Positions 6,826 through 11,780 of a stretch of 20,683 nt of DNA are shown here, piece after piece. The DNA comes from a virus. A model generated the notes under the pieces. That model did not search any database, had not been told where the DNA came from, and was given only the letters and a program-made list of their open reading frames with translations. The position numbers were made by a program, and so were the translations under genes. Position 1 is the first letter of the stretch. Each line of letters starts with the position of its first letter. The DNA is taken from IMG/VR virus record IMGVR_UViG_3300020221_003197, positions 1 through 20,683 of that record; one strand, written 5' to 3'.

Positions 6826-9021
6826 TCACCCCTCCTCGAGCGCCAGGCCGGAGACCAGCGCCACGAAGTCGTCACGGCTCTTCACGCTGTCCGCCTGGAC
6901 GGTCATCTGCAGGCTCTGGATGCGGATCGTCTTGCCCTTACCCTCGCGGCCCGCGCCGGCGGCGATCGCCGGATACTTCACGACCAGCGGCTCGAAGTCC
7001 GGCGCCTCGAGGCGCAGGCGCTCGGCCAGCTCCTCGCCGACCTGCGGCAGCCGCGGAGCGGCAAGCCGCATCCCGTCCGTCCATGTCTGCACGAAAGCTC
7101 GACCCGACCGCGTCAGGTGCGACAGCGGCCCCCGCTTCGCGTCCGAGTGCGGGAGGTACTCCCCGACCTTGCCGAGCAGGCCTGAGACGAAGTCCCAGAC
7201 CTTCCCGCCGACGGACTTCATGCCCTGCCACAGCGCGCGCAGCAGGCCGGCACCCGCCTGGAAGAAGCGCGCAGGAAGAGCGGCCAGCCAGCCCAGGATG
7301 CCGGAGAAGGTATCCCTGACCCAGCCCCAGATCGCACCGACCTTCTCCCAGTTCGCGACGACCCAGCGGGCACCCAGCGCGAGCCAGGCGATCGGGCCGA
7401 GCATCCATACCAGGATGCCGGCGAACACGCGCGCCGTCGAGGAAGCCCGCCCCCACCAGGCCGTCATCTGCTGCCACTTGAAGATCAGCAGGCCGATCCA
7501 CCCGACCAGCACGCCGACGCCAACCGCGATCCACGTGATGGGGTTCGCGAGCAGCGCGGCCGTGAACGCCCAGGCCGGACCCAGAGAGGCGAGGAACCCC
7601 GCTTTGACCGAGGCGAGCGACGCCACGACGCCGGCCTTCAGCGAGGCGGCGAAGCCGGTCCCGACCAGCTTCAGCCAGAGCCACTGAAGCCCGAGGTTCG
7701 AGGCAAGCGAAAGCGCCCCGCCGAACGTCTTCCAGATGAGCCCCTTCGCGATGAGCACCGGGCCCGCGATCGAGACGAACGCCGTGACCAGGCCGAACAC
7801 GGCACCCGCGAGCCGCACCAGCGTGGGGTGCGCGTCCGCAAAGCCCCGGAACCACAGCGCGACGTCCTTGACGTATCCGACCACGGTCACGAGCATCGGC
7901 GCGAGCTGCTCGCCGAGCGTCACCTTCAGGTCGTTCACGGCGTTGCGGGCCATGTCCCAGGACGCGCCCCCGCCCGCCTCCATCATCCGCTGCGCCTTCG
8001 CCGCGGTCCCGAGCGAGCCGCGGAGATCTCCGAGCGCCCCCTCCATGCGTGGCACCTTGTCGAGGAGGGACATGATCCCCTTCATCCCCTCCTCGCCGAA
8101 CGCGTCCTGGAATGCCTGCTGGACGCGCGGGAGGCCGAGCCGGTCGCCGAACTGGGCCCGGATGGAACGGACCGTCGCGATGAAGTCCATGTTGCCGTCC
8201 GCGGTCCGAACCACGTCGAAGCCCAGATCCTTCGACGCCTTGTTCATCTGGCGCAGCACGGCCGCGTAGCTCGTGCCCGCCATGCCTCCCTCGATGCCCG
8301 CGTCGTTCAGCGCGCCGAGCGCGGCCAGGGTCTGGTACTCGTCCACCCGGAACGTCTTGCTCGCCGCGGTCGCGTACTTCATGCCCTCGGTGAGCTGGCC
8401 GAGGTTCGCGAACTTGAACAGCTGCTGCGTCCGGGCCATGACGTCGCCGAGGCGCGTCATCTCCACGGTTGTGTCCGCTGCTCGGTCCCCGAAGTTGGCG
8501 TAGAAGGTCGCGAGCGCGCTGGCCGTACCGCCGGCCTCGCCCATGGTGGCCCGCGCGACCGTCAGCGCCGTCTGCGTCCCGGCGATCGCCTGGCGCATGT
8601 CGAGCCCGGAGCTGACCATCATGTAGTTCCCGCGGGCGAACGCCTCGGCCGAGTCCCGGTGCTCGAGCGACCAGGCCCGGGCCGCCTTCGTGGCCTCGGC
8701 CATGTCGGCCTCGATGCTGCCGAACGTGCCCGGGGCCACGGTACGGAGCGCCGCGAGCGACTCCTCGAGCCCGAAGAACGGCTCGACCAGGTTGCGCGCC
8801 TGGTCCCGCATCTGCTTGCCCAGGTACGTCATCCCAGCGCCGACCGCGGCCGTCTTCGTCCCGGCGTCGGACAGCTTGCGCCCCCACTTGCCGACACCCT
8901 CGAGGCGCTGCACGGACTTGACCGTCTCGCGCATCGTCTTCCACTGGAGGTTCGCGGCACGGAGGGGGGCGGTCATCCGATCGACCAGGCTGAGCACCAG
9001 GCTGACGTTCAGGTCGGACAC
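6826..9021 (-). CDS. Tail tape measure protein
   Basis: 731 residues from GTG 9021, with a perfect AAGGAG seven bases upstream that overlaps the end of the chaperone extension. The N-terminus is a basic helical domain. Residues about 85-310 match the phage minor tail protein (tape measure) domain: 'EESLAALRTVAPGTF', 'MMVSSGLDMRQAIAGTQTAL', 'GIEGGMAGTSYAAVLRQM' and 'FGEEGMKGIMSLL'. A hydrophobic Ala/Trp-rich stretch from about 400 to 570 holds several possible membrane-inserting helices (around 402-426, 485-515 and 530-555). The C-terminal 150 residues are more polar. The protein sets tail length and is probably ejected into the host envelope. From the usual ~1.5 angstrom per residue rule, it suggests a tail of about 100 nm. 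It follows the frameshifted chaperone, as expected. Confidence 0.95.
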   Translation of the reverse strand: MSDLNVSLVLSLVDRMTAPLRAANLQWKTMRETVKSVQRLEGVGKWGRKLSDAGTKTAAVGAGMTYLGKQMRDQARNLVEPFFGLEESLAALRTVAPGTFGSIEADMAEATKAARAWSLEHRDSAEAFARGNYMMVSSGLDMRQAIAGTQTALTVARATMGEAGGTASALATFYANFGDRAADTTVEMTRLGDVMARTQQLFKFANLGQLTEGMKYATAASKTFRVDEYQTLAALGALNDAGIEGGMAGTSYAAVLRQMNKASKDLGFDVVRTADGNMDFIATVRSIRAQFGDRLGLPRVQQAFQDAFGEEGMKGIMSLLDKVPRMEGALGDLRGSLGTAAKAQRMMEAGGGASWDMARNAVNDLKVTLGEQLAPMLVTVVGYVKDVALWFRGFADAHPTLVRLAGAVFGLVTAFVSIAGPVLIAKGLIWKTFGGALSLASNLGLQWLWLKLVGTGFAASLKAGVVASLASVKAGFLASLGPAWAFTAALLANPITWIAVGVGVLVGWIGLLIFKWQQMTAWWGRASSTARVFAGILVWMLGPIAWLALGARWVVANWEKVGAIWGWVRDTFSGILGWLAALPARFFQAGAGLLRALWQGMKSVGGKVWDFVSGLLGKVGEYLPHSDAKRGPLSHLTRSGRAFVQTWTDGMRLAAPRLPQVGEELAERLRLEAPDFEPLVVKYPAIAAGAGREGKGKTIRIQSLQMTVQADSVKSRDDFVALVSGLALEEG

Positions 9022-9025
9022 CCGG

Positions 9026-9238
9026 TCACTCCTTGCCCGTGAACGCCTTGACGATGCCGAGCGCGACCGCGTCCCGAAGCCGCCGGACCTTGCGCCGCTC
9101 GAGCCAGCACGCCTGGGCGAGCGCCAGGTGCCACTCGTCGTCGGTCAGCTGGTCGATCTTCTCGAGCGGCATGCCGAGCTGCTCCATGATCAGCAGGTCC
9201 CCCCTCATGAACGGGTTCCGCTCGACGCGGTCCCGTTC
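9026..9238 (-). CDS. Tail assembly chaperone C-terminal extension (Mu gp42-like), read by +1 frameshift
   Basis: This short frame follows the chaperone gene and precedes the tape measure gene. An ATG exists at 9208 (giving 60 residues), but it lacks a convincing SD, and the frame stays open upstream to 9253, past the chaperone's stop. Reading through gives ERDRVERNPF before MRGDLLIMEQLGM, a continuous charged segment that looks coding. The protein is helical: 'LGMPLEKIDQLTDDEWHLALAQACWLERRKVRRLRDAVALGIV'. In lambda (G-T) and Mu (gp41/42) the equivalent extension is made only as a fusion with the upstream protein. It binds the tape measure so that the tube can polymerise around it. I infer the same here, giving a fusion of about 189 residues. 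Confidence 0.75.
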   Translation of the reverse strand, partial: ERDRVERNPFMRGDLLIMEQLGMPLEKIDQLTDDEWHLALAQACWLERRKVRRLRDAVALGIVKAFTGKE

Positions 9239-9244
9239 AAAAGG
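9237..9244 (-). promoter_or_regulatory. Candidate +1 programmed frameshift site (TTT TGA)
   Basis: The chaperone ends acc-ttt-tga. The run of four T lets the Phe tRNA on TTT (9242-9240) slip one base forward and pair again perfectly with TTT (9241-9239). The next codon then becomes gaa in the gp42-like frame. A slow stop codon in the A site next to a slippery P-site codon is the logic of the release factor 2 +1 shift (CTT TGA). Mu itself uses the same net frame relation, described as a -2 shift. A -2 slip here would put the Phe tRNA on CCT, which does not pair, so +1 is favoured. Confidence 0.65.
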
Positions 9245-9596
9245 TGCGCTCCTTCACCTCGGCGCCGGTGCCGACCATCTCGAGCAGCTTGTGGGCGATG
9301 CGGGCCGGCACCCCCGGGAACTCGTTGAACACGGGCTGCAGCTCCGCGAGCGGCGGCGCCTCGATGCAGTCCGTGCACAGCATCTCGAACGCCTTGGCCA
9401 GGCCGTCGCTCGCGAGCGTGTCCTGGTGCCTGCGGTACTGCGGGCGGCTCGGCTTGTGGACGATGACGCGGAGCGTTCGGGCCGGCGTCTTCTCGCCGGC
9501 ACCGTCCTCCCCCTCCGGGGCCAGCTCGATGGTCAGCTCCTTGACCACCCCGTACCGCCGCTTCAGCTCGTCGATCCGCTCCTGGCTCAGCTCCAT
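9237..9596 (-). CDS. Tail assembly chaperone (Mu gp41-like)
   Basis: 119 residues from ATG 9596, chosen because GAGGTGA lies five bases upstream; a GTG at 9605 has no good SD. The N-terminus reads 'ELSQERIDELKRRYGVVKELTIEL', then a Glu/Gly linker, then 'TLRVIVHKPSRPQYRRHQDTL', the usual short beta part with a 'KP-s-r-x-ey-x-r' element of tail assembly chaperones. The C-terminus is helical ('AKAFEMLCTDCIEAPPLAELQPVF...IAHKLLEM'). It sits between the tube and tape measure genes, the fixed place of the lambda G / Mu gp41 class. It is expected to coat the tape measure during assembly and to be absent from the finished virion. Its stop is part of the frameshift site. Confidence 0.8.
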   Translation of the reverse strand: MELSQERIDELKRRYGVVKELTIELAPEGEDGAGEKTPARTLRVIVHKPSRPQYRRHQDTLASDGLAKAFEMLCTDCIEAPPLAELQPVFNEFPGVPARIAHKLLEMVGTGAEVKERTF

Positions 9597-9610
9597 GCCC
9601 GTCACCTCGT

Positions 9611-9635: not shown

Positions 9636-10076
9636 TCAGTTCGTGTCGGCCGGCAGTCCGTCCGTGTCGATCCCGCCCAGGATCAGGAACTCCAGCTCGA
9701 CCGGCGCCCTCTCGTCCCCCTCGGACCGCTTGAAGTCGCGCTTCTTGAAGAGGCACTGCTTCAGCACGTCGGTCCGCGTCCGCCGGTCCGTGTTCCCGTA
9801 GGAGCAGGTGATCGGGAAGGGCGGGATCCGGAAGAAGCCCTCGACCTTCTGCGCCTTCGCGAGCGCGATGCACCGGTCGAACTCCTCGAGCGAGACCGTC
9901 ATCTTGCCCTCGGCCGAGTACTTCCCGCGGCCGTAGCCGCGCGGCATCGAGCCCTTGCCGTAGTTCGGCTTCAGGTCCTTCTCGTCGCCGTATTCGATGC
10001 TCGTGACCTTCATGGCCGTGCCCCAGGGCATCGCGGCTTCCAGGCTCTCCCAGTCGTAGTCGTTCCCGTTGACCAT
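9636..10076 (-). CDS. Tail tube protein
   Basis: 146 residues from ATG 10076, with GGAAGGAGAG directly upstream. It lies between the sheath and the chaperone, the invariant place of the tube (gpM) gene. Visible features fit the tube fold: 'NGNDYDWESLEAAMPWGTAMKVTSIEYGDE', 'YGRGKYSAEGKMTVSLEEFDRCIALAK' (a beta-hairpin then helix), and 'VELEFLILGGIDTDG' at the end. The opening 'v-NG-x-x-y-W-x-s-l' is common in tube proteins of Mu-like and related phages. Its hexamers stack to form the inner tube within the sheath. The family is assigned by size, position and motif together. Confidence 0.8.
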   Translation of the reverse strand: MVNGNDYDWESLEAAMPWGTAMKVTSIEYGDEKDLKPNYGKGSMPRGYGRGKYSAEGKMTVSLEEFDRCIALAKAQKVEGFFRIPPFPITCSYGNTDRRTRTDVLKQCLFKKRDFKRSEGDERAPVELEFLILGGIDTDGLPADTN

Positions 10077-10094: not shown

Positions 10095-11780
10095 CTACGC
10101 GGCCGCGCGGAACGGGTTCTCGAGCCCGATCGTGACCTCGATCTGCCGGAACGTGCCGACCGGCACGATCGCCACCTTGACCCGGATCGTGGACGTCCCG
10201 ATGAAGTCCTGCCCCTCGGGGATCACGATGCGGCCGGACACGATCTCGGCGTTGCCGCGCATCACGTCCAGGACCTGCTGCAGGTCGGACCGCAGCGCCT
10301 CCACGCCCGTGTCCGTGGCCTCGCGGTGCATGGACTTCAGGCCCGCGACGCGAACCTCGCGGCACGCCTTGTCCATCACCCGCCGCCACTCGACGTAGCG
10401 GAAGTCGGACGTGGCGTTCGCCTTCATGCGGCCGTTCGTCACGTACACGCCGGCGAGCCCCTCGAACTTCCGGAACGTCACGAACCCGGCCGCGTCCATC
10501 GCCTCGACGTGGGCGTCGTTGACGAGCGCGTTGCCGTTGTCGTCGAGCGGCGCCAGGTCGTCCACGCCCAGCATCGGCCCGTCGACCACCCGGCCCGGGC
10601 TGTGCGACACCAGCGCGAGCTTCGACAGGTGGCCGCAGTACCGGGCCGCGCCGTTCCGCTCGTCGTCGCCGATCGCCAGGCGCCCTGCGCACACCGCGAT
10701 CCGCGTGCCGGCCACGGCCGCGCCCGCCGCGAGCACCGCGGCCACGTACTGGTCGACCGTCTCGCCCTCGAGGGGGTCGCGGAACTCGCACAGGATGTGC
10801 AGGTACTTGAACTTCGCCGCGTACTCCGTCTGCGCCAGCGCCTCCATCGCGGTCCACACGGACCCGGCGCTCGCGCCGACCACGTGAATCCACTCGAGCA
10901 GGCCGGCGTAGGGCGCGAGCGACGCGATCGCGGCGGTGAGCGCCTCGACGGTGCTCTGCGGCGCGGTCGTCGTCAGGACGAAGCCGTCGCCCGGGAGGAA
11001 CGACCACTCGGGGTGCGACACGCCGGCGACGAACGCCACCGTGACGCCCGTGCCCGGCACCGCGAACGCGGCCGACGTGGCCTGCGGCTCCACCCAGGCG
11101 CCGCCGTCCACGCGGTACGTGAACGTGGCGTCCCCGACGGCGCCCTCCTCGAGGATCGCGATCTCGACCTCGTGCGCGCCGGTCGGCGTGCCGCTCGCGG
11201 TCACCGACCCGGTGCCGCCGGCCTTGGCGTCGAACGTGAACGAGTCGCCGACCTCGAACGACACGCCCGCCTCGCCGTTCGCGAACTGCACCGCGAGGCC
11301 CGTCGCCGCCAGCGCCACGCTGGCGAGCGCCACGAACGGGTCGCTCCACGCGCCCGCGTCGCGCCGCCAGCGGAAGAGCGCCGCGCCGACCTGGCCTTCG
11401 GTGGTGCACTCGACCTCGATCGCGCCCGTCACGATCGGCGTGCCCGACGCGGTCATGGTGCCCGTGCCGGTGCCGTCCTTCGTCACGGCGCCGAGGCGTC
11501 CCGTGGTCGTCTTCGCGACGGCGGAGATCGCGCCCGCCAGGTCGGCGGCCACGCGCGCCGCGATGATGCGCCTGGCGCCGGCGGACAGCGCGTCGCGCAG
11601 CGCCGTCGGCAGCGCGCCGGTCCCGAACCCCGTGGCCACCGCGTCGGCGTCCACCACGGCGACCGGGGAGTTGACGGTGCCCAGGCTCGACTGCCCCACC
11701 TGCGCGAACAGCCCCGACGGCACGTCCGCACCGAGACCGAGCTGACCGTCCTGAACCGTGATCCTCAGCTCCGGAAGCAT
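10095..11780 (-). CDS. Contractile tail sheath protein with duplicated inserted domain (gpL type)
   Basis: 561 residues, ATG at 11780. The opening 60 residues, 'QLGLGADVPSGLFAQVGQSSLG...LPTALRDALSAGARRIIAARV', look like the first sheath strand and the domain I start. Residues 105-188 and 189-271 are two copies of one beta-sandwich-like unit: each begins GTGT/SxTASGTP, contains FRWRRDAGAW or FTYRVDGGAW, and ends near GDSFTF or GDGFVL. After 275 the conserved sheath part resumes: 'APYAGLLEWIHVVGAS', 'YLHILCEFRDPLEGETVDQYVAAV', 'SHSPGRVVDGPMLGV', 'VTFRKFEGLAGVYVTNGRM' and a C-terminal 'FIGTSTIRVKVAIVPVGTFRQIEVTIGLENPF' donor region. The insert would lie on the sheath's outer surface. It may belong to the group annotated as DUF2586. 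Sheath identity is confident; insert function is unknown. Confidence 0.87.
   Translation of the reverse strand: MLPELRITVQDGQLGLGADVPSGLFAQVGQSSLGTVNSPVAVVDADAVATGFGTGALPTALRDALSAGARRIIAARVAADLAGAISAVAKTTTGRLGAVTKDGTGTGTMTASGTPIVTGAIEVECTTEGQVGAALFRWRRDAGAWSDPFVALASVALAATGLAVQFANGEAGVSFEVGDSFTFDAKAGGTGSVTASGTPTGAHEVEIAILEEGAVGDATFTYRVDGGAWVEPQATSAAFAVPGTGVTVAFVAGVSHPEWSFLPGDGFVLTTTAPQSTVEALTAAIASLAPYAGLLEWIHVVGASAGSVWTAMEALAQTEYAAKFKYLHILCEFRDPLEGETVDQYVAAVLAAGAAVAGTRIAVCAGRLAIGDDERNGAARYCGHLSKLALVSHSPGRVVDGPMLGVDDLAPLDDNGNALVNDAHVEAMDAAGFVTFRKFEGLAGVYVTNGRMKANATSDFRYVEWRRVMDKACREVRVAGLKSMHREATDTGVEALRSDLQQVLDVMRGNAEIVSGRIVIPEGQDFIGTSTIRVKVAIVPVGTFRQIEVTIGLENPFRAAA
10959..11468 (-). repeat. 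Tandem repeat of two ~84-codon units inside the sheath gene
   Basis: The two units cover sheath residues about 105-188 and 189-274. Shared landmarks in the same order are GTGTMTASGTP/GTGSVTASGTP, an Ala/Glu-rich EV-x-x-x-x-EG strand, R-x-DAGAW / RVDGGAW, a V-rich strand and a GDSF/GDGF end. The second copy has diverged, so this is an old duplication rather than a recent copy. Confidence 0.75.

Follow-up and report, generated by a model that had tools for sequence, protein, structure and literature searches.

Phage tail assembly chaperones (TACs) use frameshifts of -1, -2 and +1 (PMC5009743). In lambda, a short and a long chaperone, gpG and gpGT, are made from one gene ahead of the tape measure by a low-frequency -1 slip, as Xu et al. 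2004 are cited in PMC5009743. A few per cent of slipping suffices for a TAC; -1 TACs of the HK97 type were measured at 6-7% (PMC3711429). For Mu gp41, a note in GenBank AF083977, citing PMID 15469818, gives a -2 product with the site CGG_GGG_CGA, and in 2012 the Mu TAC was called the only natural -2 case (PMC3498833). Shifts of +1 are annotated in the TACs of cluster F1 mycobacteriophages (PMC10793310); net +1 TAC fusions are given for Che8 and Karhdo of this cluster and for HSTV-2 (PMC5009743). A +1 slip at a stop codon is known from prfB, the RF2 gene, with its autoregulatory site CUU_UGA_C and a Shine-Dalgarno (SD) sequence 3 nt upstream (PMC5009743, PMC3711429); a minority of prfB genes has UUU_U instead (PMC5009743). 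In a phage tail gene, the tail shaft gene tsh of Listeria phage PSA, the +1 site is CCC_UGA (PMC5009743).

The window analysed here, a stretch of 20,683 nucleotides, is part of a Mu-like prophage on contig C11 of a 5.67-Mb metagenome bin; the host is a Myxococcota bacterium. Its contractile-tail genes lie on the minus strand in the order DUF2586 sheath (10095-11780), tail tube (9636..10076; phrog_4579 tail protein, E 1e-32), TAC, extension and tape measure (6826..9021; PhageMin_Tail, E 1e-21; phrog_28, E 2e-46). The TAC, which has the role of lambda gpG or Mu gp41, thus adjoins the tube gene, and the tape measure gene follows directly downstream of the extension. The zero-frame TAC gene (9237..9596, 119 aa) runs from ATG 9596 to TGA 9239-9237 and matches Pfam DUF6848 with E 2e-10. 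Its ATG is preceded by a GAGGTGA Shine-Dalgarno sequence; a GTG upstream at 9605 has none. The sheath protein is 561 aa long against 386 positions in the DUF2586 model, and about 170 of its residues seem to form an insert, in which two segments similar to each other lie in tandem (SGTPIVTG..., SGTPTGAH...).

The chaperone assignment does not depend on gene order alone. Within the family, 36 of 38 members match DUF6848. The AlphaFold model of the window chaperone (pLDDT 91) matches 3FGX, which by sequence is a relative within DUF6848, and, more weakly, the HK97 TAC 2OB9, the second-ranked PDB match to the model (probability 0.96, E 0.015, TM 0.43-0.48). The model thus moderately supports a TAC fold, and the two matches back the TAC assignment independently of gene order. 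DUF6848, whose solved relative 3FGX is labelled 'uncharacterised', therefore appears to be a family of TACs, and our finding assigns it this role. The last third of the window extension matches Pfam DUF6890 (E 4e-7), which suggests that DUF6890 is a fragment of the TAC frameshift extension in some members. A fold of the fused protein predicted without an alignment (pLDDT 39) was too poor to use.

The 3' end of the TAC gene reads GAG GTG AAG GAG CGC ACC TTT TGA, the last three codons occupying 9245-9237. If one T is skipped, the frame continues GAA CGG GAC and stays open to TGA 9028-9026, giving a protein ...ERTF-ERDRVERNPFMRGDLLIMEQLGMP...; this +1-frame extension, the counterpart of the lambda T part, has 70 codons from GAA to GAG (9026..9238 with its stop). 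The frame is open from 9253 to 9026 and is closed upstream by a TGA at 9256-9254, so that any shift must fall within the last six TAC codons (9254-9237). Among these, TTT_TGA (9237..9242; P-site Phe codon TTT 9242-9240, followed by the in-frame TGA) is the only one that re-pairs fully, and no other site in the overlap re-pairs perfectly in +1 or -2. Its P-site codon re-pairs in +1 directly before a UGA stop, as in prfB. The -1 frame reaches just 32 nt past the TAC stop and is not homologous to the extensions, which speaks against a canonical -1 heptamer. From base pairing and by elimination we infer a P-site slip of tRNA-Phe by +1. The preliminary description of this DNA had the same coordinates and frames: a chaperone ending in TTT TGA, a +1 slip that keeps the Phe pairing and removes the stop, and an extension frame free of stops back to 9253. 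It erred in calling the extension gp42-like; gp42 of Mu is the tape measure protein, and the extension is the counterpart of the frameshift part of the Mu TAC fusion.

The extension (9026..9238) scores as coding, with +55.7 bits as opposed to -75 and -109 for the two other frames. The first ATG in its frame is at 9208-9206, 28 nt past the TAC stop, and one could imagine that there is no frameshift and that a separate small protein starts here, perhaps by translational coupling. An ATG in frame so close to the TAC stop would allow this, annotations of the relatives Mushu and MMP7 list such pieces as genes of their own, and DUF6890 spans only the later part of the extension. However, the anti-SD duplex for ATG 9208 amounts to -3.5 kcal/mol where most other genes have -8 to -14, and the statement that the extension has no good SD of its own was thus right. 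From the slip site to this ATG there are ten +1-frame codons (9209..9238), which score +4.55 bits, a value reached by 0.13% of 783 non-coding open blocks; of true coding blocks, 26% stay at or below it. These codons align with the conserved extension start in the relatives. Hence the extension frame appears to be translated before its first start codon. Moreover, ATG 9208 lies inside a conserved stretch, D/N-x-F-x-Q-G-D-x-L-I, in which the aligned residue of the relatives is not Met; in several of them the first half of the extension domain holds no start codon. The coding signal ahead of the ATG, its poor SD and its position in the conserved motif together make a programmed frameshift fusion the better explanation; independent initiation we consider unlikely.

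That a perfect slip codon exists at all was discarded as evidence. Any perfect +1 or -2 site is found in 21% of random five-codon stretches, mostly as GGG_G or GGG_A, because these are common in a sequence of 71% GC. As slip codons are this common by chance, the telling point is that a rare TTT stands at the required place. Across 13 other prophage genes (4,507 codons), TTC encodes Phe 150 times and TTT once, and TTT_T does not recur as a +1 site. Within the 20.7-kb window, four T or A in a row are found once per strand. The identity of the stop, UGA in all five members of the clade described below, was dropped as an argument, since 10 of the 13 other prophage genes also end in TGA.

A search of phages and viral contigs with the fused protein found no close relatives, and the tail tube was therefore used as an anchor. 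In this way 58 loci with a homologous TAC were gathered, and the extension profile selects one frame in nearly all of them. A seven-member alignment of the tube itself was too diverse for patterns. The window extension is homologous to those of 30-40 relatives, in which an out-of-frame reading frame overlapping the 3' end of the TAC gene is likewise conserved. The tree was built from the 41 rows in which an out-of-frame extension lies over the TAC stop and the profile assigns one frame: net -1 holds for 31 rows and net +1 for 10, which fall into two clades apart from each other. Familiar sites predominate in the -1 members (GAT_TTT_TTC, A_AAA_AAG, CTG_GGA_AAC, GAG_GGA_AAA, GCA_AAT_TTN); three of them, L022, L031 and L084, show no obvious perfect site by the rule used, and L022 and L084 have A_AAT_TTG. 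One net +1 clade consists of the window and the four relatives G011, L070, G031 and G065 (support 97/98).

Frames broken in the same manner in so many relatives also bear on whether the break is real. The gene could have decayed, or a sequencing or assembly error could hide a single continuous frame; with a T run shorter by one the frame would indeed be continuous, and the sequence comes from one metagenome source only. Yet the layout in two frames recurs, in one direction or the other, in some 40 relatives, a run of four T is too short to be typical of such errors, and the adjacent tail genes are intact. We regard this explanation as very improbable. Slippage of the polymerase on the T run instead of the ribosome would likewise lead to a +1 or -2 product. 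The runs known to cause it are far longer than four T, and such a transcriptional origin is extremely improbable. Taken with the architecture of the roughly 40 relatives, the coding signal before ATG 9208 and the rare TTT strongly support a programmed frameshift of net +1, as was proposed from the sequence at the outset.

More difficult to judge is the way in which this frame is reached. All five TACs of the clade end in TGA at the same aligned place, but TTT_TGA is confined to the window. The four other members lack the run of four T and have perfect -2 sites instead, whose P codon precedes the TAC end by 12 nt: GAA_AAA_AAG in G011 and L070, CAA_AAA_CAC in G031 and GAC_ACA_CGC in G065. Comparing the site in related phages, as the preliminary description had advised, thus returned a mixed answer: the nearest relatives share the UGA with the window but not the T run. 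The A run of G011 and L070 permits +1 as well. In the contigs of G011, G031 and G065 perfect -2 sites make up 1.2-1.8% of codons; among long genes on the contigs of G031 and G065, CAA_AAA and GAC_ACA had one count each, and these single counts should be the TAC sites themselves, because those TAC genes passed the length limit.

Possibly, then, the window also shifts by -2, like Mu and, as is proposed, the sister sequences. This would take place at GAG_CGC_ACC and would lead to the same final frame with one extra residue. Besides the sites of the four sisters, the shared internal SD-like stretch and the annotation of Mu as a verified -2 case would fit such a slip. But the overlap of the window, unlike that of the sisters, has no perfect -2 site; the Arg-tRNA moving from CGC to AGC would have a mismatch in the first position, and the rare TTT would be left without an explanation. 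A -2 slip in the window therefore seems unlikely to us. Against a +1 slip at T4 stand the sites of the sisters, the report that UUU_U slips far less readily in E. coli than CUU_U does (PMC5009743), and the SD spacing and RNA folding described below. On balance of the sequence evidence, we hold it to be likely that the long form of the TAC is made by a +1 ribosomal slip at the TTT_TGA stop.

The comparison with RF2 made in the preliminary description is good for the slip itself and less so for its stimulator. In prfB, as here, the +1 slip occurs in the P site at a UGA stop, although gene and purpose are different and UUU_U is weaker than CUU_U. The prfB of the same genome (L058; G000 contig C138) has the RF2 +1 signal GGGAGG-TAT-CTT-TGA-C; since it keeps CTT_TGA_C, stop-assisted +1 slipping is to be expected in this line. 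In the window, an internal Shine-Dalgarno-like stretch, GAGGTGAAGGAG (9249..9260), is a possible stimulator, with AAGGAG 6 nt and GAGGTGA 11 nt upstream of TTT; the spacing is thus 6 nt, against 3 nt in the host prfB. The anti-SD duplex of GAGGTGAAGGAG amounts to -10.2 kcal/mol, which places it in the top 4% of in-gene 24-mers, and G011, L070 and G065 have GAGGT(G) at the corresponding codon position. GAGGTGAAGGAG may stimulate the slip. Downstream of the slip site no unusual RNA fold was seen in the window (z between -0.2 and +0.1).

By the proposed mechanism, two TACs would be made from one gene. Most ribosomes would end at the TGA and release the short form of 119 aa. In a minority of them, while tRNA-Phe occupies TTT in the P site and a slowly read TGA stands in the A site, the tRNA would move one base forward onto the overlapping TTT with full pairing, an event that the internal SD-like stretch may aid. 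Reading would then go on with GAA CGG GAC and yield a long form of 189 aa (...ERTF-ERDRVERNPF...). By analogy with other TACs the slip should have an efficiency of a few per cent, and the short and the long form would jointly load the tail tube protein on the tape measure, as gpG and gpGT of lambda do.

Measured against the described systems, the locus shares with lambda the short and the long chaperone from one gene ahead of the tape measure and a low-frequency slip. Lambda shifts by -1, like most relatives of the DUF6848 family, whereas the window is net +1. With Mu it shares the place between tube and tape measure, the out-of-frame extension before the tape measure and the net frame (net +1 in the window, -2 in Mu). 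The site is different: Mu shifts by -2 on GGGGG well before the stop, while TTT_TGA points to +1 at the stop. G011, L070, G031 and G065 fit the Mu type better than the window does. Che8, Karhdo and HSTV-2 have a net +1 TAC fusion like the window; in Che8 the chaperone ends in GAG_TGA and the overlap is long, so its slip site lies elsewhere. In PSA tsh, a phage tail gene with a +1 slip at a stop codon, the protein is the tail shaft protein instead of a chaperone and the codon is a Pro codon.

New here is a probable UUU_UGA shifty stop in a TAC, for which we found no report in the largely open-access literature searched; TAC frameshifts of -1, -2 and +1 as such are known. The more interesting result is that the type of site differs inside one clade in spite of the same net frame. 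Programmed -2 sites are very rare, and the direction of the slip is usually held fixed within orthologues. Probably, in this one TAC family the fusion is fixed and the way of slipping is exchanged: -1 at standard sites in most lineages, -2 on AAAAA or ACACA in four phages of the Myxococcota type, +1 on UUU_UGA in the window and +1 on UUU_CGN in Meiothermus phages. By this reading the window would represent an exchange of -2 for +1 or the reverse, with the net frame kept. The window groups with G065 (83/87), but a tree that holds the other four together is not rejected (p-AU 0.33), and the claim that the ancestor of the clade was of the -2 type was dropped. One small homologous family with likely -1, -2 and two kinds of +1 sites could serve as a test bed for the evolution of slip direction.

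The second net +1 clade comprises Meiothermus phage MMP7 and its relatives, and all of its distinct sequences have GA[T/A/G]_TTT_CG[G/C]. UUU_CGN is the +1 motif of influenza PA-X (PMC3498833), and by analogy the Meiothermus-type site is likely a +1 site of this form. In five TAC ends of the Meiothermus type (L023, L061, L063, L067 and L068) the TTT lies 15 nt before the TAC end and not at the stop.

Four TAC ends, those of L027, L070, L050 and L028, have GAA_AAA, CAA_AAA and GAC_ACA at one codon position together with a net +1 extension. Their perfect -2 sites are candidates for natural -2 frameshifts besides Mu. Finally, L093 and L070 share the string GAA_AAA_AAG_CTC ahead of the stop, yet their homologous extensions lie in different frames, -1 for L093 and +1 for L070.
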